Positions 30,925-53,764 of a DNA stretch of 64,000 bases are shown here, in pieces. The first letter of the stretch is position 1. Each line of letters opens with the position of its first letter. Both the position numbers and the translations under genes were made by a program. The notes beneath the pieces were generated by a model that saw nothing but the letters and a program-made list of their open reading frames with translations, ran no database searches and had not been told where the DNA came from. The stretch is from Ciborinia camelliae (Eukaryota > Ascomycota > Leotiomycetes > Helotiales > Sclerotiniaceae). The stretch lies in assembly GCA_025890175.1 (NCBI GenBank), contig JANPYM010000010.1, positions 277,498 to 341,497 of the forward strand. The letters run 5' to 3'.

Positions 30925-32484
30925 ATGTCTGGACTATCATTTTTTGTAAGTGCCCCCTTTCACTCCAAGGCTGTTTCAAGCAGCTCTTTAGGTTCTTGTA
31001 GCTAATTCTAATTACACCAGCCGTTCAATCAGGATCATCCCGATTTTCCAGCGGAGTTACGCACCGCCAAGACGAGGCACAGAAAGAGAGATGCGGAAAG
31101 TGCTAGTGAAACTATCGTGCTACAAGACCCTAGAATGAATCACAGTTACATGTTCGAAAGGGGGTGCCGCAAAGCTTTCTCAGGAATCTTCCGCCACGGA
31201 AACAAGGAGTTCCGTCTCATCGAGAACATGAATCCCGATATCCTTTATGATTTCTTTTTCGATATTCGACACAGCAGCAATACTTCAGAGCATGCAGACA
31301 TTACACCCGCAGTCCGGGGTGTTCGCGAGACACCCAAATTCTTCTTTGTCAGCTGCGACTACCATGACCCAGAGCATGTTATCGTTCGCACATATCCCTA
31401 CTTGAGAATCTTTGATTGGAATGAACAAGTGCATATAGATAATCTTAATCTCTTTCGGGAAGCGGCCATTACAGAGGCTTGCGGTGCGATTACTTTTGGC
31501 AAAGACGGTCTGCCTCTCAGCACAGATGACATTAAATCAATTATTCATACAGAAACTTCCATGGCACAAAAGACAAGGAAACAGAAGGTGGCTGCTACCA
31601 CAGAAGCTTTGAATGAAGAAGAAGAGCGGAGTGTTGGAGAACCTTCGACTCATTTCGAGACTCAAAGCCAAGCTATGTCCGCTACCTCTATTCAGCCTGC
31701 AGCACAACCTTCCCAATTACAGCTCACTGCACCGCCATTTCAGCCTAGTAGCCTGGGATCTGAACCTTCTCCAGAATTGCTCGCACAAAGTCAACAACAT
31801 GAATACCCGCAGGGTTCTCACCCTTTTCCAAACCAAGGAGCGATCCCTCAACCTGTTGAACAGAGCTACAATCAACATGCAATTCCTCAGCATGCTCCAC
31901 ACCCGGGCTTGAACCAATTTCAGAGTCAAGGACCTGATATTCATGAACATAATCAGCCACTTGGCTCCATGACATTCCAGAACCAAGAACATGAAATGCC
32001 TCAACAACTTGGTCAACAGCCTCACTTTAGCCAATTCCAAAACCAAGGATACACGCCTCAACATGATAAATCACATGACTATACCGCATTACAAATCCGT
32101 GGGGATACAATGCCTCAACATAATGGCCAACAAGGTTCCAACCGGTTCCGTAACCAAGACATTGTAGCTCCTCGACCGCTTCATGCTCTTCGACATTTCC
32201 AGCAATATAGGGAGCAAAGATACCGCGAATATGCAATCCTTCAACATGAACAACAAGCATCCAATCAGTATCAGCAAGGCGCTAGTAATGATGCCGTTGG
32301 TGGAGAAATAGCCTTCCAAGGCCCTTCAAACACAGGTTCTAGTCAAGATCAGCAGGGTGAGAGCGCGGATACCGACGGTGAGGAAATGGTTCCTCAAACC
32401 ATCTTAAGCTCCATGAATGCACAAGACTTGGCAGATGCTTTCACCGATACTGACATGACTCTCACAAAGTTTTCGAATATGTAA
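30925..32484 (+). CDS. FDWN-module protein A with Gln-rich tail (uncharacterised)
   Basis: I do not recognise a named family. Two exons, 30925-30945 and 31021-32484, give 494 residues; ATG TCT GGA CTA TCA TTT TTT joins through a GTAAGT donor to an in-frame exon. Residues 20-35 are basic (KTRHRKR). Residues ~100-164 hold the shared module: DITPAVRGVRETPKFFFV, then RTYPYLRIFDWN and HIDNLNLFREAAITEACG. From about 215 to 445 the chain is rich in Gln, Pro, His and Asn with a degenerate ~30-residue repeat built around FxNQxxxxPQ. The C-terminus is acidic-hydrophobic (LADAFTDTDMTLTKF). The N-terminal half matches gene B downstream on the same strand (ITPAV, KF, IDxLNLFRxxAIT), so the two look like tandem paralogues. 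The low-complexity tail and basic cluster would suit a nuclear regulator, which is inference. Confidence 0.75.
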
Positions 32485-33838
32485 TTTTGAAGCTGAAGGT
32501 GGGATAGGCATTCGTGGAGTATTGTATACACTTTGGGATGAGGCTTTGCTTCTGGGATCAATGCGTTTTACCAATTAGTAATGGCAGTTTTGGGGAAAAT
32601 TGAATGGAGAGAACAGAAAGATGATTTTAATCTGACCTCCTACTTTCTGCGGACGCGGTTCAGTTTTCAAGTTTTGCTTTTGTGCATTTAGGGATGACTT
32701 TCTGGGTACCAGAGGCCGAAAGAACTGAACGGTGTTAACATCAGGATATCAGCTATGAGATTCCTCGTATCGTATTGGGGAGAAATAATATATTACAATG
32801 CATAGTCAATTATCTAACCTAGTTCCCTGGTTTGAAGTATGCTGCAAGAGATGGTGGCTTGAACGTGTTGTTTTGTGCAAAAGTTTCATAATTCAAAAGA
32901 TTTCTCCAGTTTATAATAATGATAACAAGCTCAAGAAGCTTCTTAGGCATTTTCAGAATCTCATTTTATCTCATAGAGAGGACTAGGTGAATTGAATGCC
33001 AGACTGTCCAACCATACTTGGCTCGAAGCGAAGTCCCGTGATGCTTCTTTGAGACAATCGCGAGATCGTTCATCCTTTCCCCTTTCTCTTTTCTTTTGCA
33101 ACCATACTTCTCATACCTCTTTTTGAACCATCATATTTCAGGTTGCAAAACAAAACCAACTTTCTTCTCCTTTCAAAGGTGTGCTGAGAAATTGCGACTT
33201 GCAATTAATGCAATTTGGAGGTAGCTGTTCATCATCTGCCTCACCCTTGACCTTTGATCCTCCGATATATTTCAACCTCTGATGAGATATTTCTCAAGAA
33301 TAGAGGACAGTAAAAACTCAGAGGATTGGTAGATATATATATTTTTTTAAATCTTCTTCTGTATCTGTTGTTGCTTGCTTGGTTGGCTTGCTGATGTTGT
33401 TAAGAAAACAGCAGTTTATCCTGACAGGAAACCGATTGTTATTAAGCCAGAGAACGACGAAAGAATCAAAACCAACCCACCAAACCGGAATTTTAACACT
33501 TGTCGTAGCCTTCGGTCATTCAAAGTATAACAAACAATCAACTTAGATCTCACAAATATTCCATCATCGATCATCGATACCGAGAAACACACCCCCGCCA
33601 CTGAGGTACAAGTGCTTATTCAACACCAACCAACTCAGTTTACACGTATTCATCACAGACAACATCACGCAAACCTTCCTACTGATAGATCTACCAGTAG
33701 ACTAAAGGAGTAAGTACAATCAACAAATCCAAAACCAAACTTCATGTGCTAACTTGCCGTCGAAGAATTCTAAAGTCTTTGTTAGTCTTAGTCTTCGATA
33801 GAAATTTTCCACGGCGTATGAATTTATACAACGTCAAT
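32485..33838. other. Intergenic between FDWN genes A and B
   Basis: About 1.35 kb. No convincing gene. The right part (33550-33840) is A/C-rich like a long fungal 5' leader and belongs to gene B. A 66-codon frame runs from 33746 through the first exon of gene B, so an upstream start for gene B is possible; the in-frame ATG at 33818 would add seven residues. Confidence 0.55.
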
Positions 33839-34846
33839 ATGGATATTGATAATTCACCGATGGTACGTAACTCATTGTACTTGATTCTACTCGAATCACC
33901 TAGCATAGATTGCACGCTCTTGGGTTATAAGTTACATACTGACTAGGATGTATAGGCCTACTTTGCCGCCCGCCCCTTCGCATCCCTCAATGCAATCCCT
34001 CATCCTAGCACTTTGACAATTGCACAGAGAGAAGATATCACTCCGGCCGTCGTAGGTCGCCCAGAGCCGCACAAGTTCATTCACCTTCACTTTAAATATA
34101 CTGGAAACAGAAAATCTAAGCAAATTATCATGCACCAGTATCATGATTACAGTCGTCACAATTGGTATAATCAGGATGATATCGATAAACTCAACTTGTT
34201 TCGCATTACTGCCATTACATTGCACTTCGGTGTCGATATCTATGGGGGAGAAGAAAGGCACTGTAGATATCTTACTAAAAAGGAGAGAGCAGCGTGGTTC
34301 CCGAAATTGTCGGAGTTCGCTGTCGATAGCGAAATCGAAGACAAGGAAGAAAATCGAGTCATCGGGAATGGAGTTGAAGAAGACGGTAATAATGACGATG
34401 ATGATGGCGATGCCGATGCCGATGACGATGCAGATGACGACGACAACGATGACAACGATGACAACGATGATGAGGATGATGACGACGACGACGACGACGA
34501 TGATGATGATGATGATGATTCCAATGATGAAGATGGCATTCAGCAAGGTGACAATCGGCAAGGCGAGCCTGAGGAAAATGCTAATGAAAACTATCGAGGA
34601 GAATTTACTGAACATTGGCTAAACAATTCTGACACCGAACTCCTGACGGAATCGTTCCAGATGCTTGATACTTCGGCATCGGATCTCGATAATTCCTTTG
34701 ATCCTGGAATCAGCACCGAGTTGTTGAATTTCATGCGTAATGAGGGTTGGGTTATATCCGATGATATGGCTCTGGCAGTCCATTACGAAAATCTTCCCAA
34801 TGAGCCTCAAGAGTCCATTTTGGCCCAGCGAGCCAAGTCTCTGTAG
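33839..34846 (+). CDS. FDWN-module protein B with long Asp tract (uncharacterised)
   Basis: Not a family I recognise. Exons 33839-33862 and 33956-34846 give 304 residues. The acceptor at 33954-33955 is chosen over the AG seven bases earlier because the earlier one runs straight into TAG. Residues ~34-100 carry the shared module in a diverged form: DITPAVVGRPEPHKF, then YHDYSRHNW in place of FDWN, then DIDKLNLFRITAITLHFG, matching gene A closely (DxLNLFRxxAIT). Residues ~150-205 are an almost unbroken Asp run encoded by mixed GAT/GAC codons (34390-34520). The C-terminal ~90 residues have acidic-hydrophobic patches (HWLNNSDTELLTESFQML). An acidic region next to a compact module could be a histone-binding or activation segment; this is only a guess. 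The antisense Ile/Val and Ser frames over the tract are shadows. Confidence 0.72.
34390..34520 (+). repeat. GAT/GAC trinucleotide tract coding poly-Asp
   Basis: Within gene B a run of about 130 bases is made almost only of GAT, GAC, AAC and GCC codons, giving Asp with a few Asn and Ala. GAT and GAC are mixed, so the tract is not a freshly slipped pure triplet and the amino acid may be what is conserved. Confidence 0.85.
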
Positions 34847-36963
34847 CAATTGCAGTTGGGTACAACTATCTTCATGCTTGGATGTCGATCCGGAGCTTCC
34901 CCTTGAATTTAAGCCGACATCAGCTTCACGAAAAATACATGAGCTTGCCCTTCTGAGATTGTGTCAGCTGGGACTCCCTCCAAGACTTGACTCTTGAGTA
35001 AAGTTTGGGAAATATCTTCGATTTCTCTGGTGATTCAAGATTCAAGAATCGCAACCTGCATCTCCCGAATGCTAAATCAGTGACCCGTATTCGAAGATGA
35101 TCTTTACACAAATGGGACTTAGGGCTTCTACATAATGAATTGACGCTGAATTTGTTCAGTAAGTTTTTCTTCTCCACGGATTTATTCTCGATGATAGTAT
35201 GACTAAAAGATTTCAGTTTGCTCAATCATGCTTCTGGCGAAATTGGTCCAAACACTTCCTTGCCTTGGCATGGCATGTGGATGAGGATGGGACCGATGGG
35301 TTCATTACAGTTGGCCTCAAGCTATTGTTTTCTTTTTCTTTTCTTTCTTTTTTTCCCCATCGATGATATCCTTTTGAATGGATCCACTATCGAGAAATAC
35401 TTCAATCACAAATATGGTTTCGTTTCGTTCATGGTCTTTCCATGGTCCTTCCATTCAAGATTTTGCGGAACGAAAGGAGAGGAAAGGGAAGATGAAAGCT
35501 GCTTCATGTTCCTTATCCCAAAGACGGTTGAAAAGATAGTTGATCATGTATGATTGGCTAGCTTGCATTGGTGGTTCCAACTCCCAAGCCCTCAAGGTTC
35601 CATCTTCTAGTTTGCCAGCTTGCAGATCAGATCAGATTAGATTATGAAGCTCATTAAAGAAAAAAGCCCCTTAAAAAATTGGACGCGTCACTTATGCTGG
35701 AGACACTAAGACACCAAGCTACCCTTCACTTGGCTAGCTACCGGGATAGTCGGGTAGTACGGTTCCTAGTCGGCAAAAGCGATTGCATAATGTCATACAA
35801 TTTGGGAATAACTTCATTATAATTTTGAAGCAATTTGATGCAATGGTTAAAAAGTTCTTTTAAATAATACCGTAGTTAATTCGAAGTTGAAAGTTGAAAT
35901 ACCTTTGCTTTATCTTACCTGAACTAGGCAGGTCATGATGAAAACAAAACACGAGTAAATCAAAACCAAAATAAAAACCAAAATCATGCGAATATATTCG
36001 TACTGTATTTTCCTTACCTTATTTCACCAGAGGAATTATCGGTGGGTATTTTGAAATTATGCAACCAATCGCTTTTTTTGCCGGCTAGAAACCGAAGGAA
36101 GGTTTTGTCAAAAGCCAAATCTATGTCTACTCGTTATCAGATCTTTTCACTAGAGGAATTATAGGTGGGTATTTTGAAATTACAAGTATGCGATCACTTT
36201 TGCCGCCTAGAATCCGTCAACTGGTCAACTGGTACCGGTAGTCTGGGAGGTTCCGCAAGTTGAGCCGCGTCGGTCGTCTACTCCTTATCAGATCCTGTTT
36301 ATCAGATCCTTTCTAAGTTTTCATCTAGTAATATTCTCCACTTCTTCCCATTTCAGTGGACCCTCATGACTAGCTTTACGGTTTCCTCCGTAGACTCTGC
36401 ACAAATTTAAACGCGTTGAGCATAACTTTGAGCATGTTAGAGGTCATTAGGTTGGATATAGATTAAAGATCTTCCCGTTCGGTTCGCTCGGGTGATCTTC
36501 GCAAATCATTTTCGTTCGCTTGTTGCGAGAAATGTCAATTGGTACGTAACAACATGAATAACTTGCATAATTATCAATTTATCATACATGCCTAATTATA
36601 CATAGTAATATTTAACTTTGCCCATCAAGGTTAAGACTTTCGACTTTTCGGCCAAGTGAGGCTTAGAAGTTGAAATTGACATGATCGGCACTAAAATTTA
36701 AGCATCCCTGCTTACCGCTTCCAGATTCCATAATAGTACACGGTACTTTTATACTTTTTCTTTTTAAGTTACGTCAAAAGTGACATTTGCCGTTGCGGCT
36801 CTCAGATTTAATTCTTTCATTAACAGACGAAAAAAAAGCTATACTAAAATATATACAGTGTGAGGTACTTGCTCTCTGTTATGATACAAGACTAGAATGT
36901 TTTCAAGGGCACGACAACGATTATCTTTCGGTATGTTGTCGCTCCAGTAAACTCGAAAACTCT
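34847..36963. other. Intergenic with a direct repeat
   Basis: About 2.1 kb between gene B and the 3' end of the yellow/MRJP-like gene. No supported gene. Two imperfect copies of a ~70-base block lie at 36022-36095 and 36144-36215 (separate entry). Frames at 35218-35553 have no family match and poor composition. Confidence 0.55.
36022..36215. repeat. Imperfect direct repeat, two ~70-base copies
   Basis: Copy 1 (36022-36095) and copy 2 (36144-36215) share AGAGGAATTAT, GGTGGGTATTTTGAAATTA, and then a diverged CGATC/CGCTTTTTTGCCG..CTAGAA stretch. TTATCAGATC units lie next to the second copy and again at 36284-36306. This looks like a small local duplication of unknown origin. Confidence 0.7.
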
Positions 36964-38377
36964 CTAAGCAGCTGGTCCTCTACCGATCCAGATGCGGTAA
37001 CTTCTGAACGGTCCTCGGCGCTTGTCAATGTTGTTGTATTGTCTGCCTGGTGCAAGTCCTTGTTGGTTGGTGGTGAAGTACAACCATCCATCCAAGATGG
37101 CCATGGTATCGGCAGCCTGGATTTGCCCGCCGCGGGCGAGTGTCTTGAGATTGTAGTTTGCAGCGGCGACTGGGCCGGAACCACCAGCTGGGACTCCATT
37201 GACCACATCGGTGACTTCAGATTGCTCAGTATCGGCGTATAAGATTGCGTTTTGCTATTTTTTAATGCGTTAGCGAGCGATTAGGCAGAAACGGTCGAGT
37301 CAAGGGGTACTTACAGAAGAAGCGCAGATGTATACTCGTCCTCGGTCATCGGCGGTGAATCCAGCTTGCTCGGATGGGAAGTTTCCTGGGTTCTGAATCA
37401 CGGCTTCGATCTCGGCGTCGCTCAAGTTGGAGGTAAATGCCTCCTGGGACGCGTAGTACCAGTGGTTGGAAGCCTTGACTCCCCAGTAGACATTACCTCC
37501 GGTCAAGGCAATACCGTTGGTTCCAGAGTTAAGGAACGAAGAATTGGTACCCTTCCAGCTTCTGATGACTTGTCCATCGTACATGGAGATGAAGTGAGGA
37601 TCGGGGGTGGAGAAGGTGCTGTTGAAGATATGTCTCTTGGTCTCTCCAGTCTTGAGGTTAAGTGTCGAGATGGAACCGTATGCCGAGTCTTCGGTGATGA
37701 AAGCATATCCGAGAGTGTTGTTGATGCGAATGTCGTTCAATTGGATCTTGACGTTGTATAGCTCTGGGGGATAGATGTAGTTGCGAATGAGCTCTCCGGT
37801 AGTGTAATTGAATGACATAACTTTAGCTCCGTAAGTTGTTGGCTTGGCACTAAAGTAAAGAATCAGCTAATATTCTTGCAATGATGAGAAAGCCACCAAG
37901 ATCAAGTTCCTGATTGGCAGACGAGGTGGCAGACAAAGAAGCAGAAAAAGAAATATTAACTTACGCTCCATAAGGAACACCGCTATCAATAACCCAAAAG
38001 ACGCCTTCGGCGTCCAAAACCACGTTCTGAACATTAACAAAGCATTCGGAAGCGTTCTGGCCCGTCGCACAGGTTTGCCATGCTTCCGAAGGCCATGGGA
38101 CCTCAGTAGTGAAGCCGGTGGCCTTTGTAAGAGTCCAGGTCTGTGGCTCCATGTTTCGGGCATATGTGAAGAAAAGGTTGGACTCCAGGTCGACGGCCAA
38201 TCCCGTTGGAGCGCGCACATACTCGTGAACGGCGTGCAACTCTGCTCCGATGACATCTAAATCAGCAGAGCATAGTCCGATGGTGGTGAGGTTGTTGCGC
38301 TGTTGTGATAATGGGACCGGGCAGGTTGTCGTTGCAGCGGCTGCCGTGGCGGCCAAGGCGGCTAAAAGGAGTAACAT
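36964..38377 (-). CDS. Secreted yellow/major-royal-jelly-like protein
   Basis: Three exons on the minus strand: 38377-37965, 37849-37315 and 37254-36964, giving 412 residues. The start is the ATG at 38377, which opens a signal peptide (MLLLLAALAATAAA) followed by TTTCPVPL. The mature chain carries family landmarks in order: APTGLAVDLESNLFFTYARN, VFWVIDSGVPYG, NDIRINNTLGYAFITEDS, GNVYWGVKASNHWYYASQEAF and AGFTADDRGRVYICASS. These match the yellow/MRJP beta-propeller family (Pfam MRJP), which in insects includes yellow and royal jelly proteins and in bacteria and fungi has no firmly settled function. Several N-glycosylation sequons (NNT, NST, NSS) support secretion. An enzyme or extracellular ligand-binding role is possible but cannot be read from sequence. 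Confidence 0.85.
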
Positions 38378-39807
38378 CTTCAAGATTGTAGAATAGTTCC
38401 GCGTGACAACAACTGCCAAAGAGACTTGATTAAGAATGAGCGTGTGTAGTCCAACATATTTTCAGGAGAATGTTGCCCTTATTTGAATGCGTATCTGAAT
38501 CTTGTAAGCTCATGATAATGGGATGATCATGATGATGGCCATGATGATGGCAATACTGCGGCACTCAAAATCTTCGGTGGAGGGAATTTAAAGTTCATGA
38601 TGAGGAGGACCCTCCCGCGCCACTGAAAAGCTTCGTTAAATGCGGAACTTGACTTGGCACTCACTTGGCACTCACTTGTCAATCACTTGTCAAGCACCTG
38701 TCTTAGGCTGCCTATCACCTGTCAAATGCTATTATGGAATCTGCCGTTATGTAAAGGCTCCGACGGAGAATACTTTGAAATTAGAATCTGTGGGTTTCAA
38801 TATATCAAAAGCTCAACACCTCGACTTGGCAACCGCATGACATTGGAGAATTTTCTCAAATTGATTAAGGAGTAGGACCGGAAACCTTGGGATCATACCT
38901 GTAACTTTCTGACGAATCCGAAGAGGGATTTGTTGGTTCTGCGAACTCGTAAATTTGCTGCTATATTCTGCATGTAAAAGATCACTAATCGTTTTCTTGG
39001 ATATTCCGATCTTCAGTACAATGGCTCCGGTTTGCGGCCGTTTTCTTCAAGCTATATTGCTATAGAGGAAAGTATAGTTTGCGTTCAAGTGAAGGCAAGG
39101 GCTCAGAGCGCAGATCCAATTGCCATCCCCTTCGTTCGTCAATAATGTTGCAAACCACCTTGTGTGTTACTTGAATCTAGCCCCCCCCGTCGCAACGTGT
39201 CAGCCTGTTTTGGTGTTAAGGGTGTTGATCAAATAGCTCAAGTGCGGGAATTGCTTTCTTGTCATTAGGTTTATTCTTGTGATTTGTTGCTAGTTGCTAG
39301 CTATGCTTTTGAGGAGGTAAATGATGAGAAAGTGGACAAAGAATGCAACGGAGAATATACGAATGCTCCACCGCTGAACATCACGATTCACGATTCACCA
39401 CCAAGTTCCAAGTTCCAAGTTTCAACAAACCTCGCAAGAACTTTAACGTTTCCTTTGGAAAAGTTTCTGTATATCGTTCTCACATGCTAGGGTTCCCAAC
39501 TTCCCAAATCAATATTCCACTTTCTCACCGTCTCCTGCCAAGATATTTTCCCTTCAAATGTTATCTCTTCTTCTAAGTTCTAAGTTCTCTCTCCAGAGTC
39601 TAGAGTCCAGACTCCCTGTACTTGGATCATCTGTACCTGCTTTCAAGGCAAGCTAGCCATGCTTCCTGTACATAATAGCCATTCCACAAGGTGCTTTTTG
39701 TGGTCGGATTCGCTGGAGACGTGGTGGATCTTTTCGATTTGTTGACCCTTGAATCTCGATGAGGGTTAGAGAACATTTCCACCATGCATGATGTGTGCCA
39801 TTGTGCA

Positions 39808-39872
39808 CTACTGCACTACTGCAGCCTGCAGCCTGCAGCCTGCAACCTGCAACCTTCAACCTGCAACCTGCA
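39808..39872. repeat. PstI-site-rich tandem repeat (CTGCAGC / CTGCAACC)
   Basis: Seven to eight copies of a 7-10-base unit (GCAGCCT / GCAACCT variants) in tandem, with repeated CTGCAG palindromes. Non-coding, in an intergenic region. Confidence 0.7.
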
Positions 39873-40668
39873 GCTCGTGGAAACCAGTCGGCATCCTCCG
39901 TTTCAATGAAGTTTATCTGGGGTCTGGGGTCGAAATCGATAAACTCACTGTTTAGCATGACATTACCAAGGCTTCTGGTTTTGGAAAGGTTTATGAGATC
40001 ATTTTTACGGACACTCCTGGGGTGACTCAGGTGAGGAATTCGCGGGTGAAGGCGGAAGGGAAGGTGTGGGGAATATGAAGAATGAAAGGGACTAGACAGA
40101 AATCTTGGAGAGGTGCAGCACGCACTTTGATACTTGTACATATGGTCAAATTACATTGCTTATGTTGATTTTCATTCAAGTTTGAGCTTTAGTAATTTGA
40201 GAGTGGATCAGCAGCTCAAGTTTGTTGCAAGTGATAATGCAGAATTGATTGTCTATGTTGACAATGAATACCACATTTAGAGCTAACATTGGATTAGAGC
40301 AAATTAAAAGATTCACCTAAGAGATAATTCTTTTTGATAACAGGACTTCTTTGTGAGATCAATAGTTTCTTCTCCTTTTTAAGCTTTATGATTTTCATTT
40401 TCATCATGGTTCACTTGTAGTTTTTGTACAACATTTTGGCTTCTTGAGGATATTAGTTCCTACTTATGGCTTTGTGTTAGGACTTGAAAGCTGCCGGATC
40501 AAAATACAATATTCTTTCATGTGGGTTGTTCATTAACTTTTGCCTCTGTTCTCAAACGTAATAGTTTTAATTGTAATCCATGACAATATCTGTAGACAAT
40601 TAGATATCATGCACATCATACATTAATGTCATGCACTTCAATATGGCTCTGTGGCTAACCTAATTTTG

Positions 40669-40705
40669 ATGCAATGCAATGCAATGCAATGCAATGCAAT
40701 GCAAT
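40669..40705. repeat. Pentamer array (ATGCA)n
   Basis: Seven perfect copies of ATGCA in a row in intergenic DNA. A pentamer in non-coding sequence, unlike the 3n-period arrays seen in coding regions. Confidence 0.9.
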
Positions 40706-41694
40706 ACGTACCTACATGGAAGATTAATAATAATATGAAGATGGATACATCAATGACCTGATCCCCATTTGCTATTTCCACAGATTTGAGCCTGGTCTTT
40801 TATGACAACGCTACAACAGTCTAGCTTGCATCATCAAGTATTGGATACAATTACTCTCATCTGAAGTTATTACATTCACAACCAAGAAAGAATTCAAAAT
40901 AACCTCATCGGACCACCTCCTCTGACCTTACAATAAACAATCTATCACCAACAACCAGAAATAATTATCTAATTTCTATCCTGACTCATCTTATCAGTAT
41001 GGATTCTATTTTCGAGCAAATTTTGGTTGGATTAGTTTCCTACAGCAATTGGAAAAATGGACTCTCGATTATACAATCAATGACTATGCCGAGACTACGA
41101 CCAACTACCCCGACTACAACAGTTGTCAGGTCGATACAGCAGTTCTGTTTGTCATATAAACATTCAAAGGAATGGTTTATATTCTCAATTGTACATTCAA
41201 CAACTTTAACTCTATTTACTTGAAAACACAACAATTTCTCTGTTCAGAGTTCTAAGAACACAAGCATCCCACAACACCATACCTTCACTTATTATACTAC
41301 TTTTCCCACATAGGGACACTCAAAACATTTTGTCTATCGAGACAATTGAGAACAGGAAGATTTTTACTTCAGGACTATCAATCTGTAAGTATTAATCTTT
41401 TTCTTCTCCATTCCTAAAATGACTTTTGGCTTCAAAGAGCTAGAGTGAGGAGTGGTCTCACAGATTCAAAACATTTATGATTCCTCAAGTCACTACCTAC
41501 TAATTTATCATCTCAATCTCATCTCAATCTATCGAATAAATCACCTAATACATTACTCACTACTACACATCCACATCAACATCCCACCATTCCCAAGATC
41601 GCTATCACATACATCCCAGTCTTATCCATCCAGCAACTAACAAAACCCACCAGAAATAGAAACCCCCACCAAACCATCCACCAACCCATCCACC

Positions 41695-42763
41695 ATGACC
41701 CCCGGAAAAGAAACCCGACCCAAATTCCCCCCCACCAACAGCCCGCTCCCACCCTTCGGCCAACCCGGCAACCAAGGAAAATCGGCCCTCCTCCGCGAGA
41801 ACTTCCTCTGCAATATCGCCGACGCCATCGTGCCGACCGGCATCTTCAAGAACCACGTCGCACATCGTAGGGATACGGCTTACAAGGCGGGTGACTTTAA
41901 GAAGGCGGATGTCGAGACCTTGGTCGAGGATGATGATTGGGTTAATCTTATGGATAGGAATTCAAATAAACATGTGTTGGGTAAAAATATGGCGGAGGGG
42001 AAGGGGTTGGTTGCTGGGTTGTCTGGTGGGGATTGTTTGAGAGATGAAGATGGAGATGCAGATGGAGATGGAGATGCAGATGAAGATGGAGATGGAGATG
42101 GAGATGGAGATGAAGATGGAGATTCGGATTCCCTCATCTCTATCTCCCGACCCACAAGCCCGACTTTTAACACCACCACCCCCACCAAACCCAAACCCAA
42201 ACCCAAACCCAAACCCAAACCCAAACTCGCAGCCACCTCTCAATCATCCAACACATCCCACATCACCAGCGACACCGACATAGCCCCACCCAAGATCAAG
42301 ACCGACCACCACGATCCCTCGAAATTTCGCGATCCGTCCAAGATGAAGATTCAGGAAAAACTCATCGACTTTAATACTGATGATAGCGATGGCGATGGTG
42401 GCGTTGATTGGAATAAGAATCATGCGGAGCATGTGGAGAGACTTGATGGGGACAGGGGAGGCTGGGAAATGGGGACTGGGATGGCGGAGTCGAATTTGAA
42501 GATGGAGATGGAGAGGGAGATGCAGGGGATGGAGAGGTATGTATTTTTTTGCTTGGGTGATGAGGGAGGGGGATGGTGATGAGGTTGAAGTTGAGGTTCA
42601 TTGCATGACTGGGTTACTGGGAGATGGGATTAACTCAGTTAACTGATTAACTAACTAACAATAACCACCCCCTTACAGTATTCAAATTAACGACCGAGGT
42701 AGACGTTCTCCCATCGATACTTTTACCGGTACATGGTCACTAGACGATGAGGACGAGCTTTGA
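41695..42763 (+). CDS. Uncharacterised acidic protein with Asp-Gly and Lys-Pro repeats
   Basis: Not recognised. Exons 41695-42536 and 42679-42763 give 308 residues; the start has a good context (CACCATGACC). The N-terminal ~85 residues are ordered-looking and free of repeats, with GKSALLRENFLCNIADAIVP and HRRDTAYKAGDFKKADVETL, and may be a small conserved domain. Then come a DGDGDADEDGDG tract coded by GATGGA repeats (about residues 115-142) and a KPKPKPKPKPK tract coded by AAACCC repeats (42186-42226). The second exon adds IQINDRGRRSPIDTFTGTW and an acidic end (SLDDEDEL). The spliced ending reads in frame, which supports the intron. The final residues resemble a DEL tail but without a signal peptide this should not be read as ER retention. 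Function unknown. Confidence 0.65.
42186..42226 (+). repeat. AAACCC hexamer tract coding Lys-Pro
   Basis: Seven consecutive AAACCC units inside the 41695 gene, giving alternating Lys-Pro. Together with the GATGGA repeats just upstream it makes the middle of the protein highly expandable. Confidence 0.85.
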
Positions 42764-45700
42764 CGCCCATTTTACTTGAGTTCCGGGAATCAAATCTATA
42801 CACACATACATACGAAGACCACCCTAATAAGTTGGCAAGACGATACGACACGACACGATACGATACGATACGAAATAAACGAATAGGTATTGGCGAGGGG
42901 AAAGTGAGGGGGCAAAGGGGGGGCGTTAACAAATTGTCTATTCTGGTGTCTATTCTGGGGATCTGGGTATTTACTGACTAATGAACTGATGAACTGATGA
43001 TGTGATTGGGGAATTAATTGTATATTGTATATTGTATATTATACTAGGTATCTTATTTCGGATTGGGTGAGTTGGGTGTAATGATGGATGCATGGATAGA
43101 TGGATGCAAGGTTGAGACTGGGATTAATATTAGGCTGCGCAGATATCTCATCAGCATGAGTTCATATCCAGGTTGATATGAAGATTCATGACATGGCATC
43201 ATGGTTTGACATCATGGTGTTTTGCCAATTGGCTATAGAATGAGAATTTTAAAAGAATTTAAAAACGAAAATCAAGCACGAATTTGAAAATTTCTCGTAC
43301 AGGTACAAAGTTGGATGTTCAATGTTGGAGTTGGAGTTGGAGTTGGTAAGGGTGGGTGGCTGATTTTTGATGTGCGGTGCTGTACAAATTCGCTATTTAT
43401 CATATTCTTCCTTTCTCCTATTATTGTATTTTAGTCTCGTTTGCTTACCTAGTATGTATATAGGTAGGTAGGTAGGTACCTAGGAGGTTAAACTTAGATG
43501 TTATGTATTTTATGTCTTGGACTAGCTATTATTGAGCCTCTTCTTTATATTTATTTAGATTCGCTTAATTCTCAACTCTGGTTCTCACCCACTCACTCCT
43601 ACCACAGTCCCGCTTTGGACGATGGAAGATGGAAAATTGAGGGAGGTAGGAGAGGAGGAGAGGAGAATGGGTAGATGCGAATATGAAGAGGTGCGAGGTT
43701 GCGAAGGGAATAACTCTGCATCTACGATCCCCTCGCATATGCATATGCATTCACAGGAGCAATCCCCCTTTTCTTAACCTGATATTCACAGAGTCGAGTT
43801 CCATCGGTTTATAATTTATACCTGAACTTTAAGTAATCTCTCCCCTTTCCCCCCTTTTTATGCTTACTAAGTTGCTGGTCGGGTTAGTGAGGTTCGTATG
43901 TATAGGTAAGTAGGTACCTAGGTAACAGTTATACGAAAATGAGAATCGCTTATTATAAACCCAATTGTGAATATTACTGAATTAGATGACAGTGTTCTTT
44001 CTTCTCCTTGTATCTGGAGTGGATAGAATATATCTGATTCATAGCCACTTCTTCAGAGAGCCCCGGAGAGCATAGGCTTGGGAATAGTGGTATGTTCTAT
44101 CGGAGTTGTGGGCTTATGTAATTTTCGAGGTATGGAATTAAGAACAGAATGGGTATTCAGTTCTTGGGTTAAATAGCTACATGGAATTGTGAAGACTTGA
44201 TATAGATACATATATAGAGAGGTATATGATCCTTGGTGATATTTATTGGAATAGAAAGGTATGAAAAGGGAAAGGAAGGGAAGGGTTTCATGTGCGTTCT
44301 TGATAGTTGACTGATGTATTGATAAAATAGGCAAGGAAAGGAGAACAAAGTGAAGAAGTTCAAGTTCAAGTAGAGTCCTTGACAATGAGGTCATTATAAA
44401 TAGCATACTGTAACTACATCTAGCCTTTCTCTATTAAATGACTTGCAACATTTTCATCAGTCCTTACCTATTGCACCTATACCATACCACCACTATCCTC
44501 CAATAAATGAACCTTCAAAGATATCAAAATCATACCTAGGTACCAAGTATCAAATCAAGGCCGATGATTACAAGATGCGGGGATCAACAAGAATATTCAA
44601 TACGCTTCCTAAATTCACCCAAATCCCAAATAACTGTATCATCCAAACCAATCATCATTCAATCTTCACTTTCCCCCCTCAAAGCTTTTTTAATCCTTTC
44701 CTAATCTACTTAGGTAATATTCACTCATCACATCAACAATCTCCAGCTACTGTACAAAAGAGGCGGGGTAAAAACTGATGCCTTATTCTAGTAGGTAAAC
44801 CCAAGAGGGAAGAGGGGACATTTTGTCCTAAATCAACATTGATAAAAAAGTTTCCAAAATTGCTTCCCTTTCCCGATCTATTGTTTTTTTTTTCATCACA
44901 ACCCTTTTCACAAACATCACTTCATCGCAACCTCAAAATCTCAATCTCAATCTCAAATTTTGCGCATCCCTTTCTTGAATATTTCCCCTCTCTTCACAAT
45001 AACTTTGGTGATCCTTTCTTGATATTGGATTTTCAACTTCTTTGATCTGCGGTCCGTTGTCGACGACGCGTTTTTTTGATGGCTCGTAGGGAATCTCCTT
45101 GATGCTTCGAAGATAATATTTACCTTTGGTATGTAGATCGATTTCTTTCTAGCATATACGAATAGATTATTTGCCCTTTCTTCTCTCTTTACCCCATCTC
45201 CATTTGGTAAACTTGTAAGTTGAGGAGACTCTTATAAGAGATTTTTCCTCTTCGAACAAGACGCTTTTTTATATACCTATCATTTCTTCTACTCTCACAT
45301 TTGTGCAGATGGAGGGTGATTCTTCATCATATCCTTACCAAAGTTCTTCCTCACTCTTGCCTGTAGCTCTTGCAGGTACAGCCTTGTTATTTAGTGCGCC
45401 TCTTGCTCAGATCCTCTTCTCGACTTGAATAACTATCGTGCGCTTGTTCAGACGAGCCTCTATACACTCACCTCACCTTTGCACGTTTTTTTCTTCATCA
45501 GTCTTGTTGATTCGGCGCGTTAGGAGTCATATCTTCACATATCTTCACATACCTTCCTCTATTCATATTTTTCCACTCACTTCTCTACCAACACCTGCCT
45601 CGTTGATACATATTGTTCGGATCACATCAAATATTTTCGCACATACTTCTAGCGTAAGAGATCGGGTGGATATCAACAATAGATCTCTTGGTCTTGATTT

Positions 45701-45845
45701 TATCCGATAGAATTCCGACAATTCAAACATTCACCCGAATTACCTTGTTGGACATTTCAAATATTCATACTGACTCAAGTGAACATTTAGCGAAATATCC
45801 AAAACCGACTACGGACGAGTACACATCAAGGAGAATAGACAAGAA
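42764..45845. other. Intergenic with simple repeats and long 5' leader of FDWN gene C
   Basis: About 3.1 kb without a supported gene. ACGATACGACACGATACG repeats lie at 42838-42872, TAGGTAGGTAGGTACCTAGG-type strings near 43460-43487 and 43905-43924. From about 44840 to 45845 the plus strand is strongly T/C-rich with few ATGs, like a long transcribed leader of gene C. Frames here (for example 44443-44778) lack family matches. Confidence 0.55.
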
Positions 45846-48209
45846 ATGGAGCAGGCCGGAGAAATGAATATGTCTGTCCGTACGAAATCACCTCTTTTCC
45901 CAGGTTTGGCCTCTGTCAGTGCTGCTGCTGCTTCGAAGGAAGTGGGGCAAGCCTCTGCGATTGATACGATGGAAGCAGAAACTTTGGATAAAGAGAAGAC
46001 ATGTGCAGCTGTTACTGAACAAGCAAAGCGCATATCTGGTTCCGTCATCAAAACTGGTAGTGGCGGTGGATCCGACAATATCATGACAGCTGGCACAAGC
46101 TTCCATACAACTGCTCCCCCGAATAAACCTAGAGACGAGTCCGAGATGTCGCCTGATTCAAGAGTCGGTTCCCCCCACAGATATGTGCCACAGATTACAC
46201 GAGAGAAGCCAAGTCCCAATTGCATTTATCTTCGCCACCATCTTATCGGTCGATTCTGCTTCTACTGCCGTGGTATGGAAATGCCATGGGGAGATTTTCA
46301 TCCAACTGCTTTCGACACTAACGGCAAAAAGATCCGTATCGCTCCACACGGTGCACTACTAGAGGGTGTCAAGAACTTGACTGAACCCTATGAGATCACT
46401 CAGCTTGCTTTGCTTATCGAATTTCGCACCCAACTACAAAGTCCTACCACCATCCATGGTCTTGTAGAAGCCCTTAGCTACTTTCCAGATTTGCATGATG
46501 TCGCTCGTCGAATTGCAGATCTGACCCAAGAACTTGCAACATTGGCAGATGAGAGTGAACGCGCACGAGTCCCACATTGGTCCAATATTCTTCATGATTT
46601 ATTGATAGAACCAACGTTAACTCGCGAACAATACTTTGCAAGAGCAACTCGGGAGTGGAACTTGCAACCTGTCAATGGAGGTATGGCCCGAGTCAAAGCT
46701 CCAAACCCAATCATTCCCTCTTTTCCATTGTCAACACGAGGACATACTGGAGCCCTGGTAACTCTCACCAGAGAAGATGCAATCGAGGATGCTGCCAAGA
46801 CACATAGCAAGGTTGAGGTTGATGAGCTCATTAAGTACCTCGATAGGAACGAGAGCAGGGGTCCAGGATATGTTCAATTTACTCTTGACTTTGTAAATTG
46901 GTTGAGGGAAGGAGCACATGGTACTGGCCGTGGTGCACCACAATGGGGTCCTCATTATGTGCAACAATATCACTCTGTTACGGCTGCATCTGCAGATTCC
47001 CTATCCCACCAAATTACGAGAAGTCGGAAAATTAAACTCCTTCTCCCTCGACGCAGTGGCCAATTGAAATTCTTCGATACTCGCAAGTCGGCATCCAACA
47101 CCACACCAAACTGCAGCGATGAGAACTCTGACACTGAGGTCCACGATAGCAATGATGAGGAGAATTTTAGAGAACCTAGCTTCCGTAAGCTCCCAGAAGT
47201 TAAGAAGAACACTCCAGGTCGTTCCGGTGTTGACTGGCAGTTTGTTGAAGGATCCGATCTCGAGAATGCTGAGCTCGGCAAACCCGATCCAAGCAAGTTC
47301 TACTTGACCCGAGTGAATATGAATAATCCCACGGAGATTGATGTTCGTCAATACACGCACATTGCCATGTTTGACTGGAACAACCCTCAAGATATCTCGA
47401 AACTCAACAAGGCTCGAGCTCAAAATCGTAAACGTGTCAATGGTAATATTGCCGAAACACGAATTCCCTGGACACAGATGGAGAAGGCTTGTCTTTTTGA
47501 GGAGGTACAAGAAGCTATCAATGCAGGTCAAAATAGACAAACTATTGATTGGGATGATATTGCAGCTCGTCTCAAGACTAGGTTTGAAGGAGTTCTTCAG
47601 GAGAAAGGCGCAAAGCTGGCACCGGGCGTTGAGAGAGAGCCAAAGGATGGTAAAGACAAGAGTAAGTGAAATTTCCCCTGGTGTTGTTTCTGTAATGAGC
47701 AGGTTCGCTCCTTCCACCTACGGAAGCCCGAGCCGCGATTGAGAATTCACTTTTTCTTTAACATATGATCACTGACATATTGATTCTCAACAGCTCTCAG
47801 GACCAGTCGCAGCGACCGCATAGGCTACAACCGCACTGGTTCCGCCACCGAAACCCAAGCCTTGAAATATCCCGATATTCTACAAATGATCAATAATGCC
47901 ACTGGAATTGGCGGTAAGGGAGGTCGTGGTCTGCTCAGAGGTCCTCGTCGCAACCTCTCAAAGATGAACAATGGCGCACAGGATGAAGGAAATAATCAAC
48001 CAACTAAGAAGATCAAGACTATTCCTCGCTCCTTTTCAACCAGCCCAACCCCTGATCAGTCCAAGGAGAATTACAAAGACGACAACGATGACGAAAATGA
48101 TGGATCTCATATGTCTAACGTTGGACACCCTGCTGTGCGAGCTGCCTTTGATATGAAATTCACCAAGAGTAATGCAAACTACTTCGATACCAATCCAGGT
48201 AATAATTAA
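45846..48209 (+). CDS. FDWN-module protein C with CxxC module and Myb-like segment (uncharacterised)
   Basis: Exons 45846-47661 and 47794-48209 give 743 residues; the splice joins KDGKDK to TLRTSRSDRIG in frame. Order of parts: a ~120-residue Ser/Ala-rich leader; a short CxxC module (RFCFYCRGMEMPW, about residues 134-147); a ~130-residue helical region with the landmark HWSNILHDLLIEPTLT; a linker with acidic patches; WQFVEGSDLENAELGKPDPSKF; the FDWN module (YTHIAMFDWN then DISKLNKAR, near 500-520); a Myb/SANT-like segment (IPWTQMEKACLFEEV...IDWDDIAARL, about 540-580); and a basic tail with a likely nuclear signal (KKIKTIPR). Gene D matches it over this whole order except the leader. The architecture suggests a nuclear DNA- or chromatin-associated protein; no experiment or known family supports this yet. 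Confidence 0.8.
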
Positions 48210-49010
48210 ACGGTTTTCGGATCGGGCTGGTGGACTTTGTACTACGTCTAGATATTCGGTCTTCTGGTTCCAGGTTACTTCTGATTTTTCTACTTTGCAC
48301 ATCGGGTCTAGCATAAGCTTTCAGCTGATGTATCTACCAATCTTGTTTCTCAACGCGCATTGTCTTCCTACCACTTGATAAAAAGGATTGCATACATACG
48401 AAACCTCCACACCAGCTCCAGAATTCCCACTATACACGACTACTCATCTCATTCCCGTCAGCACATGTTCATTTCAGCACAAATTTCCCCTTTCACCATG
48501 CACCCCAACCGCAACCGCAAACGCAACTCGATACTCGATAGTTAGTTTCCCCCTTTACACCCAGGTCATTCATTCACTTCATTCTCATGAAAAATAATGA
48601 TACCATACGCACGATTTCGGAATTCGGTATTCGCATTGATACATCCACCACATATTTTCCCTTTTTCCTTTTTCCTTTTTCTCTTCTTTGTTTTTTGTTA
48701 TCATGACACGGCGATGCGGTTTGGTAATTTTATATCGTACATGAGGGTATGATGGATATGAATGAAGGACTTCACCTGGGGTATTTTTGCTGCTTGCTTG
48801 CTTGCTTGTTGACTGTATACATGCTTGCTTGCATACATACATAACTTCTCTTACTGTATCGTTTCATTCATTCATTCATCCGAATAAATCTGATGCAATA
48901 GAATAGAATAGGATAGGATAGGATGGGATAGGATAGGATAATATCTGTCTGTAGGTAGATACCTACCTATATATGTATAAAGCTGAGCAATAATGGAATT
49001 TGATGGTCAT

Positions 49011-49106
49011 GATTATGATTATGATTATGATTATGATTATGATTATGATTATGATTATGATTATGATTATGATTATGATTATGATTATGATTATGATTAT
49101 GATTAT
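49011..49106. repeat. Hexamer array (GATTAT)16
   Basis: Sixteen perfect tandem copies of GATTAT, a very homogeneous array suggesting recent expansion. The His-Asn frame on the minus strand is a by-product of the six-base period. Confidence 0.95.
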
Positions 49107-49275
49107 GATAATATAAATTTACCGTAATGGAGGTATTTATATTTGCTCGCATCACATGACTCCATAAAAAGATCAACGAATCACGGCGATCCTAGCGCTT
49201 TGATCACTTAAAAGTCTATGCGGGGGAAGAAATCCGGAAGTCTGGAGTCTAGGTAGATAACTTCTTAAAGGGATG

Positions 49276-49686
49276 TGGTCCACCCCGTTCGTCAATTCGG
49301 CCTATTAACTAATGGGACCACCCTATTGGTTAATGGGAACCCCTTACCCGAACGGGGCGCCCGATTAGTTAATCGGCTTTATCATCTAAAAATCGATTTT
49401 TTGAAAATATAAAATTAATGTTTATTAATAAATTAAATATTTATTAATAATAGAATATTCAATTAACAAATCAAAATCGATTAATATTAATTGATTTTTA
49501 TATTAAAAAAGTTTTAAAATATTTTTTTATTAAACTTTTCTATTTTCAAAAGATCGATTTTTAGACGATAAAGCTCGTGAACCACCCCATTGGTTAATCG
49601 AGCGCCTCGTTCAGGTAAGAGGTTCCCATTAACCAATGGGGTGGTCCCATTAGTTAATGGGCCGAATTGACGAACGGGGTGGACCA
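49276..49686. mobile_element. Foldback element / MITE with very long inverted arms
   Basis: A 411-bp element whose ends are inverted copies starting TGGTCCACCCCGTTCGTCAA. The match extends over roughly the first 70-90 bases with few mismatches and resumes further in (the TTTATC..CTAAAAATCGAT stretch), leaving a ~190-base, very AT-rich centre. Each arm contains repeated CCCATTAGTTAATGGG and CCCATTGGTTAATGGG strings, themselves near-palindromes. GATG lies directly outside both ends (49272-49275 and 49687-49690), a likely 4-base target duplication. There is no coding capacity. The superfamily is unclear. Confidence 0.85.
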
Positions 49687-50557
49687 GATGGCTCGCTTGG
49701 GATATTGATTCTAAAATCTCACTTACACCTGTTTAGCTGCAATCTCAGATTCAATAATCGTGGTTTATATTCGTTGATGACTACGTGAATCTGGATTCTA
49801 GATTCTAGACTCTAACACTCGAGTTATCCACTTCTCCTCATTTTATCTCCCTGGATCTATTGAATCTAAAACCGAATTTGGAAATATTAAATAATGAGGT
49901 TCTGGAGATATTCTTAAAGGAGATGATATTTCTAATGAGCTTCTGCCCGAATCCGAGAGGCTAGGTACCTAGGAATTCATAAAGAGTTTGAATGCGGGAT
50001 GCGTAAACTAGCTGGCTATCTAAGCAGGGATAGCTTCATCTATTAGGTCCACCACTATATCATTTCATCTATAAGTCCTAGTCTCTTCTCTTCTGAGAGG
50101 CAGTGATGAAAGGGGATACAAATGAAGAATCGAAATGATGCGGGATAGTGCTATATCAGAAATATATTTTTGGTATAAATCATTAGGTTCGAAATACGAA
50201 ATACGGTTAGGCGATGTATCTATCATACTACATAATAGCTAGGTATGTGATATTCGGTGTACTATTTACCTCGTCTCTTGGAAACGTAATTTAGTACGGC
50301 TCGTCCCGCAAACAGTTTCCTCTTCATCGGCAACGTGCTCAAATACTCCTAGTATATTATAGATTACACCATCAATCCTTATGTAGATATTATTATTCTG
50401 CTCGCAAAAGAGTAGAGCCAAACTAAGTTCTCCACACCGATGGCTTATCCAAAAAGTAGCATATCTCGCTACCTATGAACATCTCCATCAATTTTTCTTC
50501 AATCAGTCACTCTTTTCTACATCCACCTTTATTCCCGAGATTTCTTATTTCTTCACC

Positions 50558-51129
50558 GTGAGAATTTTCCTCATTTTTTCTGCATTGACGGAGCTAAGCC
50601 AGGTTATTGCTGTCGTCCCGAGACTGGCTATCAGTCTGTCAGAAGTGTGTCACATCGACCTATGCCAACATCATCACCACCGCCTATCCAGCCACCACTC
50701 CATCAATAACCTGCGATCTAGAAACTGCATTTCCAACAGGCGTCAGCTGTTCCAACAGGCGCCATCGTTTCCTTAAGCGAAGGGAATTCTTATTCTCAGC
50801 ACCCTCCGCATCACGAACCGGCGGCACGATCATCGAACCCCTCTCCATCTATACCTCCATCTATACCTCCATCTATGCCTCCATCTATACCTCCATCTAT
50901 ACCTCCATCTATACCTCCATCTATACCTCCATCTATACCTCCATCTATACCTCCATCTATACCTCCATCTATACCTCCATCTATACCTCCATCTATACCT
51001 CCATCTATACCTCCATCTATACCTCCATCCACAAAATCCTCAATAATCCCCTCGGCTTCGCAGCGAGTTCACATCACAGCATCGTCATTCCACAATCGGG
51101 GTTCTGGCCAAGCACCCAGTGCGTCATAG
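50558..51129 (+). pseudogene. Possible decayed or mis-assembled secreted-protein gene with a 12-base repeat
   Basis: One plus-strand frame reads CVTSTYANIITTAYPATTP, then ITCDLETAFPTGVSC, a Cys/Thr/Ser-rich style common in fungal secreted proteins. It lacks a clear ATG. Past 50770 a second frame becomes the more protein-like one, with PPSIPPSIP repeats coded by the 12-base array. A GTGAGAATTTTCCTC start at 50558 could mark a signal-peptide exon in yet another frame. No splice model I tried is convincing, so a relict gene or an unrecognised multi-exon gene are both possible. Confidence 0.3.
50841..51030. repeat. 12-base tandem array (ATACCTCCATCT)
   Basis: About sixteen copies of a 12-base unit with a single early variant (ATGCCTCCATCT). 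All three plus-strand frames and one minus-strand frame stay open through it because the period is a multiple of three, so the long open frames are not evidence for coding. Confidence 0.93.
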
Positions 51130-52088
51130 ACGGAATGGTGCGGTGATACCTGTCCCGGTGGCTGCAAATGTGCGCTTTTCAATAATTTATGTCGATTGGG
51201 ACCCTGCGTTGCTATGATGATGATGATGACTTCTAGTGTTGGTGATGATGATGATGATTGGTAAATACCTAGTGGGTAATAATTGGGGAGTTTTGATCTT
51301 GAGTTGAGTTGAGTTTAATTGGGAGGAAGGGAGGAAGGGAGGGATGGATGGATGAATGGATGGTTAGTGGCGGTGGTTGTATAGATAGGTATTAAATCAC
51401 ATTTTAAATCGAAAATAGCCTTTGAGGCTAACTTATGGATATTTAATTATGTATATATATAATTTATACGGCATAATACAGTAAGGAACTCTGGGCGATG
51501 ATACAAGTGTCTAATAGGTAGGTAATCACTCAAACCTCGCATCATGTGCGCGTAGGCAGGTAAACGAATACAAGTCAACAATAAAATAACAAAGGTAATT
51601 CAATCTTGAATCGCTCTGAAAAACTAGATAATCACCCCTTACAACCATCTACCTATTTCCCGGTATCACATCATATCGTGTCTTTGTACATGAGCTATTT
51701 CCACCTTGCCATCACTAAACTTAAACCAATCTCGCGAGCATCATACATACATAGGTACTGAATCCAACCATCCCTTTCTTATTCAGCAAAAACATTATCC
51801 TCCAGCTGCAATAACAAAATTTTCTTGAATAAAAGAAATCAAAACCTCCGTCTGGGTCGTCACATCATGCTTAGTTTATTTGTGTATAACTGGTGGTGAA
51901 GTGAATGGAATCTACCATTAGAGAGACCTTTCGAGCTCTAGTATGATATGATAGATGATTTGGAGTGAACGATTGAGGAAAAATGCGAATATGGGAATAT
52001 GAAAATGGAAGGTGGATGAATGAGGGGTTCTTGTATTATGTTGAATGGATGTGATGGATTTCTTGACCACAATCCGACATTCTGCCCT

Positions 52089-53764
52089 TCATGAGAGGTT
52101 CATCGCCTGTGGATTTATCAGCGGCAGGTACGATTGTCTACGATTCATTTGCGGTTCATCGTGCGAAAATTCGTCGACACCATCGATCTGCATCCTATCA
52201 TTTGATATGGGAGAAGGATCACCCGAAGATGCCCATCTATCTTCCAACATTTGACCAACTTGTGGAGCCGATGCAGATGGAGCTAGAAGCCTAGGAACGG
52301 AAGGAACATATTGATGTTGACTAACAATTTTAATCATCTCGTCCAACGATTTGCGCCTGCTGGATTGTTCGGCGCTATTCCGAAGTAACGCGTCGATATC
52401 TCCAAACTTCGTCGCTTGGTTCATGCAACCGCTCGCATTGCGCTCGGAACCCGTCCGGTCTTTTTGCATCGTGAGGTGCCTCTTCATGTGGAAATCTTCG
52501 CGCTTGGTCTTGGAATTCCATTTGCTTGGTCGGGCTAAGAGGGTGCCTTTTCTTTGTGTGACCCCTTCTAAATCGACGTTGATGTTGTTGGCAATTTGCT
52601 CCCATGGCATGTTAAATTTAGTGTACTGTGATGGGAGAGTCAGCAGATGATCACTGATGTCAATGTTTGAGAAGATGGAGCTGGAGGATGAAAACTCACG
52701 CCGTATTTTAGACCTTGGATTACTTGGTGGCGGAGGAGATCTTTTTCTTTTTGCGACCAAGGTAATCTAGGTGGTGCTTTGGGACCGTTGGTTCGGAGAA
52801 TGATTTGGTTCCGGCCCCGGTTCAAAGCCTGGACTGCCTCTTTATCATTCCAGTCAAAACCAGCGATATGGGGATATTCTCTGACGTTAATCTTGCTTGG
52901 ATCTTTTCGATACTGACGGACCATGAAGAACTTGGAAGTATCTGGCGTGGCCCAATAAGCAGGATCTAAATCTTGTCCGTGGGAAAATTGCCAAGGCGAT
53001 ATCTGTCGCTGTTTTTTGGGATCCACAGCTTCATCCTCGTCGTCTTCATCTGCTTCATCCCGGCTGCGGAATAAGAGCTTCTTGCCCTCAGGTATTTTAT
53101 CAGTATCATCATAACCGAGGTCCTCATCATCTTGCTCTTCCTCGTCATCTACATCTGGTAAAACGATTGGCTTGCTGCTTGCAGGATTCACCTTGGAAGT
53201 TGTGGGAATTGCCTCGGAACCACGAATACGTTCTTTGTAGACGGCCACTGTTAACTCGGGATCCTTTAAAGCCTCATGTAGCACATTCCACCACTTCAAC
53301 TCCGCAAACTCGCGCTTTTGAGCAGCCATGTAAGCGATATCTGTGAGGGCATAGGCTGCAGATCTTATACGTCTTCTCTCAATACCGCGGTTCATCGTGA
53401 TAGCATTATGCCACTGGTTGGTCATGATTGCCCATGTGGCCATCGAAACCAAAGCTATCTCTCGAGGACTATCAACTTTTACTCCTTGAAGAATCGTGCC
53501 TTTTTGTCCCACAGATACAGGCAAACCTTGATATCGTGCGATTGGTAGAAATCCGCTCCAGGGCATCTTCATCCTCGTGCATATTTCGCAGTATTGTCCA
53601 GTTTTATGGTTTGTAATATCTTCAGGTCGGCATGGTGGGCCAGGCTCAGGATATGGTTTGGTGAGCTGTCTGGGTTGATTTCCTGCCTGGAGTTTAGGTT
53701 AGTATTTGCTAGTAAGGAACATCGTGAACTTGTTGGCGAAAATGCTACTGCATATCTTTTTCAT
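52089..53764 (-). CDS. FDWN-module protein D, full-length paralogue of C (uncharacterised)
   Basis: Minus strand. Secure exons are (5' part)-52701 region ending at 52700 and 52625-52089. The 5' end is tentative: 53764-53749 spliced to 53682 gives MKKICRNQPRQL and 511 residues in all; a longer leader is possible because gene C has one. Parts follow the order of gene C: CRPEDITNHKTGQYCEICT, KMPWSGF, KWWNVLHEALKDPELT, an acidic linker, WQFSHGQDLDPAYWATPDTSKFF, YPHIAGFDWN (near residue 281) and LPWSQKEKDLLRHQV, with the Myb-like segment completed across the last intron (YTKFNMPWEQIANNI). The last exon continues with basic and Ser-rich sequence that has no counterpart I can see in C. C and D converge on the 48.2-52.1 kb gap. 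Likely nuclear, function unknown. Confidence 0.78.

Follow-up and report, generated by a model that had tools for sequence, protein, structure and literature searches.

Fungal Myb/SANT-like proteins (Myb_DNA-bind_4 and kin) are the described proteins that most resemble the products of a gene cluster in Ciborinia camelliae, the camellia flower blight fungus of the family Sclerotiniaceae (PMC10512376). Four of the clustered genes, named A to D, reside in the window analyzed here, a stretch of 64,000 nucleotides (positions 277,498-341,497 of C2, a contig of 2,418,242 bases), and each encodes a module that is named for its core motif, FDWN. Like Myb/SANT-like proteins, members of this FDWN family exhibit a W(T/S)xxE opening, a predicted helix 2 with [DP]Wxx[IV], and a predicted third helix after RT/RS. 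Furthermore, member H yields a sub-threshold Pfam match to this group, and in a second structural comparison of D the top ranks go to SNAPc chains and Sap1, although the match is weak. Unlike the described proteins, the FDWN family has a long insertion before the third helix, an unnamed N-terminal module, and paralogues assembled at one place. In addition, no scanned member attains the Pfam gathering score for a Myb/SANT family, the best being H with Myb_DNA-bind_4 (15.8 of 27 bits).

A second likeness is to the Phialocephala subalpina protein PAC_07534 and to homologous proteins from Acephala macrosclerotiorum and from an isolate of Mollisiaceae (P0023, P0042, and P0043). In the same order as in the FDWN family, these proteins carry a CHCC motif, a helical domain, the module (with the letters FDWN in P0023 and P0043 and FDFN in P0042), and a Myb-like region, but they differ from D to the extent that only 25-28% of residues are identical.

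The modules of A, B, C, and D are homologous, and this relationship is statistically supported. An initial annotation of the window had listed four motif pairs, each consisting of an FDWN-like core and a downstream LN element, and all four are found within long open frames at 31411 (+) in A, 34151 (+) in B, 47370 (+) in C, and 52858 (-) in D. The lead-in that it had described is likewise present (TPKFF, PHKFI, PSKFY, and TSKFF), although the module begins slightly earlier than had been proposed, at D[IL]xxAxxG. The spacing from FDWN to LN is exactly seven residues in A, C, and D. B reads SRHNW and hence lacks FDWN, but the surroundings of the motif are kept. When 18 A orthologues were compared with 22 D orthologues by hhalign, the alignment spanned 75 columns with an E-value of 1.4e-8 and a probability of 95.5%. 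The A-orthologue profile also matches B (E 2.8e-9, probability 96.1%) and C (E 6.9e-7, probability 91.9%), and B is nearest to A (36% over 75 positions).

Scans with hidden Markov models (HMMs) were conducted on 1534 six-frame segments from 130 kb, with 7670 shuffled segments serving as the control. A model built from 21 of the 22 D orthologues recovers C (2.3e-17), A (7e-10), and G (2.5e-4), whereas the best shuffled segment reaches 0.18; B (0.38), I (0.84), and F (3.5) fall inside the shuffle range, and E is not listed. The model built from the 18 A orthologues recovers B (3.9e-11), D (1e-10), and C (3.4e-8), with F at 0.0098 (the best shuffled segment is at 0.010), G at 0.44, and neither E nor I listed. 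Thus, judged against shuffles, the scans support A, B (by the A model only), C, D, and weakly G, but on their own they provide no support for E, F, or I. Weak matches at 61547-61678 and 72907-73029 are inside the shuffle range. When all six frames of the 130 kb are searched, the pattern FDWN-x(3-9)-LNxxR has four matches, which belong to A, C, D, and F, and it is absent from 200 residue shuffles. Likewise, FDWN-x7-LN, searched as codons throughout the genome (46.2 Mb, 27 contigs), has the same four matches versus one in the reversed control. As the initial annotation had stated, the module corresponds to no named domain: no Pfam family is named, and the best NCBIfam score for the four frames is 13 bits versus a cut-off of 160. 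Searches of open-licence papers brought up no description of either the module or the cluster.

A to D belong to one paralogous family that is found in a single stretch of 55-57 kb in the C. camelliae genome. Searches of this genome with the module, the module plus Myb-like region, the N-terminal piece, and the Myb-like piece as queries produced 31 rows, including self-matches and weak rows, all within C2:308,782-363,957; these searches score the best candidates only, and diverged copies elsewhere might have been missed. The local expansion on both strands that had been proposed is upheld, but the count of four copies was too low, because there are up to nine paralogues and the set continues beyond the window end. 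The additional members are E, which straddles that end, F (C2:344,838-345,869), G (C2:355,031-356,572, -), H (Myb-like part at C2:349,775-351,210, -), and I (C2:363,445-365,070). H was detected with I as the query (1.2e-5) and has a profile E-value of 3.8e-7. F has a profile E-value of 2.7e-5 (probability 74%) and phmmer values of 3.6e-4 and 0.0012. E is the least-supported member, with a profile E-value of 5.2e-5 (probability 67%) and phmmer retrieving only E itself. Three other frames were rejected on profile comparison: the J frame (C2:352,934-353,758; probability 0.4%), the frame at 41641-42576 (0.3%), and the frame upstream of H (0.1%), which holds no supported module.

The commonest arrangement, which the initial annotation missed, is the module followed by a Myb/SANT-like region. 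C and D are alignable across the N-terminus, the module, and the region behind it, in the order C-x(5-7)-H-x5-C-x2-C, MxMPW, a helical domain, the module, and W(T/S)xxE - [DP]Wxx[IV] - Q..G, the last of these spanning an intron. Gene C (45783-48206, +) consists of a frame at 45783-47666, an intron, and a frame at 47784-48206 that was assigned by eye from its resemblance to D. Its N-terminal domain, with a putative zinc-binding CHCC motif (46209-46682), is 31% identical to that of D (E 3.9e-8) and is followed by the module (47256-47435) and the Myb/SANT-like region (47460-48206). Gene D (NHQ30_007866, P0001; 52092-53698, -) comprises frames 53698-52643 and 52766-52092, with an upstream start exon that is not fixed, and its frame is 99% identical to the C. 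camelliae protein. The homologous N-terminal domain of D is at 53228-53617, its module at 52793-52972, and its Myb/SANT-like region, including the intron and a tail, at 52092-52790. Among proteins P0001-P0023, 15 of 23 have the CHCC motif within their first 90 residues, and at least two of those without it, P0009 and P0020, begin inside or downstream of the motif.

The module plus C-terminal region is also encoded by G and I and partly by E. The post-module region is common to C, D, G, and I, and profile comparisons extend it to H and E. Gene E (62094-64000, +, continuing past the window end to about 64187) has a diverged module remnant (RRNW, AKLNHW) and then a Myb/SANT-like region at 63699-63998; the assignment of 62094-63149 as its first exon was made by eye. 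A and B have a different composition. Gene A (NHQ30_007861, P0024; 30925-32484, +), whose frame is 100% identical to the C. camelliae protein, has an exon at 30925-30945 (MSGLSFF), an intron, and an exon at about 31021-32484. Its module (31297-31482; DITPAV...FDWN...LNLFREAAITEACG) is joined to a Gln-rich tail (17% Q past residue 200). Gene B is an open frame at 33956-34846 (+) whose start exon was not found; its diverged module, in which RHNW replaces FDWN, lies at 34034-34231, and its tail is acidic (56% D/E across 87 residues). No Myb-like domain is seen in A or B. The earlier statement that the copies have different tails is true of A and B but not of C and D, which share the N-terminus and the post-module region. 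The proposed domain shuffling is visible only in that some members have the Myb-like part and others lack it, and in the differing tails.

An AlphaFold2 model of D (26 rows) has a mean pLDDT of 59.4, rising to 80-93 for residues 61-160 in the N-terminal domain. The module is predicted at pLDDT 70-79 to form a beta-hairpin (strands 257-262 and 269-273) and a helix (285-303), and further helices are modeled past it at 315-330, 340-362, 396-405, and 407-417. The model of A, the only other one made, is too poor for use (mean pLDDT 37.7). A fold search with the D model at E up to 0.001 found no match among solved structures or viral models. The second look that ranked SNAPc chains and Sap1 first had no row over the module or the N-terminal domain, and these parts were barely tested by it. 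Several Pfam hits with E-values under 0.1 were discarded as below the cut-off or senseless for a fungus, namely HrpB1_HrpK (2 of 26 members, best 0.0022), SurA_N (2 of 26, 0.04), Herpes_env (1 of 26, 0.0082), HflK_N (1 of 26, 0.067), and five families with one member each of 18 (best Gp10_C, 0.0082). Calici_coat_C over the module of G (residues 22-107) is also below its cut-off (15.1 of 25 bits).

The left border of the cluster is a UDP-glucose:glycoprotein glucosyltransferase gene (26063-30052, +), and farther left come genes for a COPI coat subunit, a cupin, a kinase, SPT6, and an oxysterol-binding protein. On the other side, beyond I, HMM scans as far as +130 kb on the window scale found nothing exceeding the shuffle range, and a frame at 90,863-91,543 on that scale has no Pfam match. 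A Major-royal-jelly/yellow-like gene (37303-38461, -), one exon of which scores 20 bits for MRJP versus a cut-off of 19.8, is located inside the cluster between B and C. A 12-bp minisatellite (CTCCATCTATAC) is located at about 50843-51041, between C and D. Farther along C2, at about 402,500-407,800 (about 125,000-130,300 on the window scale), GC content is only ~6% over 5 kb without any N, compared with 35-46% in other 5-kb windows of the 130 kb.

Because most of the approximately nine distantly related genes share the module or an adjoining DNA-binding-like domain, we favor, with some reserve, the view that they encode nuclear DNA- or chromatin-binding proteins in which the FDWN module extends a Myb-like domain. 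The C-terminal half resembles a known kind of protein. The proposal of an undescribed system is too strong, since the data are consistent with putative DNA-binding proteins of the nucleus; the genes probably represent a family of nuclear regulators that has not been described before, and not a new type of molecular machine. The ancestral unit would have been the FDWN module plus a Myb/SANT-like three-helix domain, with the module (by prediction a beta-hairpin and a long helix that begins close to FDWN) serving as an N-terminal extension, and the Myb-like domain would bind nuclear DNA or chromatin. A and B would then have retained the module without the Myb-like part; they carry Gln-rich or acidic tails and would partner or compete with the full-length members. 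It is tempting, though rather unlikely, to go further and propose that the module is an undescribed fold that forms with the Myb-like domain a lineage-specific DNA-reading unit of Helotiales. The array might then be a self-contained regulatory locus whose module-only proteins A and B titrate or bridge the DNA-binding members.

One serious alternative, which we nevertheless consider doubtful, is that the module is a protein-protein interaction (dimerization) domain through which the cluster proteins contact one another, with DNA binding being secondary or lost, and with A and B being normal rather than reduced forms. The retention of the module in A and B without a visible Myb-like region is in line with this idea. 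Moreover, all 37 invariant columns of the 18-row A alignment are at residues 77-173, over or around the module, and the Gln-rich tail is poorly conserved, although the start of this conserved stretch is biased by at least two rows that lack the first 76 residues. Opposing this idea is the fixed distance from [FV]DW to the Myb-like W, a gap-free 33 residues in C, D, G, I, and P0023, which suggests that the module and the Myb-like opening form one working unit.

The distribution of orthologues bears on a further alternative. D-type proteins (23 rows) comprise those of 17 named species in the genera Ciborinia, Sclerotinia, Stromatinia, Monilinia, and Botrytis/Botryotinia, five of unnamed source, and one of Phialocephala; A-type proteins (18 rows) come from 17 named species and one unnamed. 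Because both types occur across 11 named species, the split between A and D is, judging from these proteins, older than these genera and is not a recent burst. In eight of the 11, including C. camelliae, A and D are on contigs of equal length and hence inferred to be on the same contig, and their gene tags are 5-8 apart in the seven species with numbered tags (counted in tens for B. convoluta). They are on different contigs in the other three species, in two of which one or both of the contigs fall short of 40 kb. It is improbable, but worth stating, that the cluster serves in recognition (self/non-self) or genome defence (anti-transposon) and diversifies fast, its genes being kept together because variation among members matters. 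Paralogues are indeed arrayed at a single place, and A, in the one comparison available (A with D), diverges faster: full-length alignments to the Ciborinia protein give 35-45% identity for 17 A homologues and 57-76% for 21 D homologues, although the divergence of A is inflated because these alignments take in its low-complexity tail. However, the maintenance of both genes in 11 species reveals no strong turnover, and the Pfam lists include no domain that is known to us from fungal incompatibility or defence.

The occurrence of the C/D arrangement in the homologues from Phialocephala and Acephala, which we take to be Mollisiaceae, and from the Mollisiaceae isolate suggests that the family originated before Sclerotiniaceae and Mollisiaceae separated. 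These three proteins were all that was returned by an alignment-based search (five rows) that scored only the 7992 candidates with most words in common and failed to return even one of its own rows, P0001, and it is therefore uninformative on the spread of the family. The protein search with D is blind above ~616 residues, which places C orthologues (~750 residues) out of its range, and a search of plasmid records with D found no match, as expected for a fungus. A tree was built on 75 of 190 columns from 29 rows, namely 10 of 22 D orthologues, the three proteins of Phialocephala and its relatives, 11 of 18 A orthologues, and B, C, F, G, and I, with P0015 removed by a motif filter. It sets the A orthologues and B apart from all others (93/98), but only one inner branch of 26 has good support, and the branches leading to B, F, and I are long.

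The diverged copies arrayed on both strands, together with an inverted repeat between C and D (49273-49689; 104-nt arms, 89% complementary, 209 nt apart), could point to relics of a domesticated mobile element. This origin is very improbable given that the Pfam matches of scanned members include no transposase family and that the A and D frames are intact across genera. In addition, positions 30500-64000 hold no repeat of at least 60 nt beyond the inverted pair and the minisatellite, and TpA/ApT ratios of 0.66-0.97 per 5 kb over the cluster indicate no strongly mutated block. Finally, a reading of the module as a diverged YTH (m6A-reader) domain, prompted by its KFF-type strand with a following aromatic residue and by the UniRef name 'YTH domain-containing' of an A orthologue (P0029, Botrytis deweyae EAE98_000202), is scarcely credible, because neither P0029 nor P0024 matches Pfam YTH at E up to 10, the A7 profile has no YTH match among solved structures, the Myb-like opening of D begins a dozen residues past the module helix and leaves no space for a YTH fold, and the motif order is opposite in trout YTH proteins, where FDWN precedes the strand (PMC10253868, as far as its available part goes). 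The UniRef name, considered against these sequence comparisons, is probably a wrong automatic assignment.

If the favored reading as nuclear DNA- or chromatin-binding proteins is correct, these genes would represent a family of putative nuclear factors that is missed by Pfam models. Regardless, several genes of Sclerotinia, Botrytis, and Monilinia that are annotated as encoding a 'hypothetical protein' can now be joined into one family with a defined order of parts and a testable function, and this family includes a D orthologue in Botrytis cinerea (P0013), a species amenable to laboratory work. In most species where both have been seen, A and D remain near each other in the genome.
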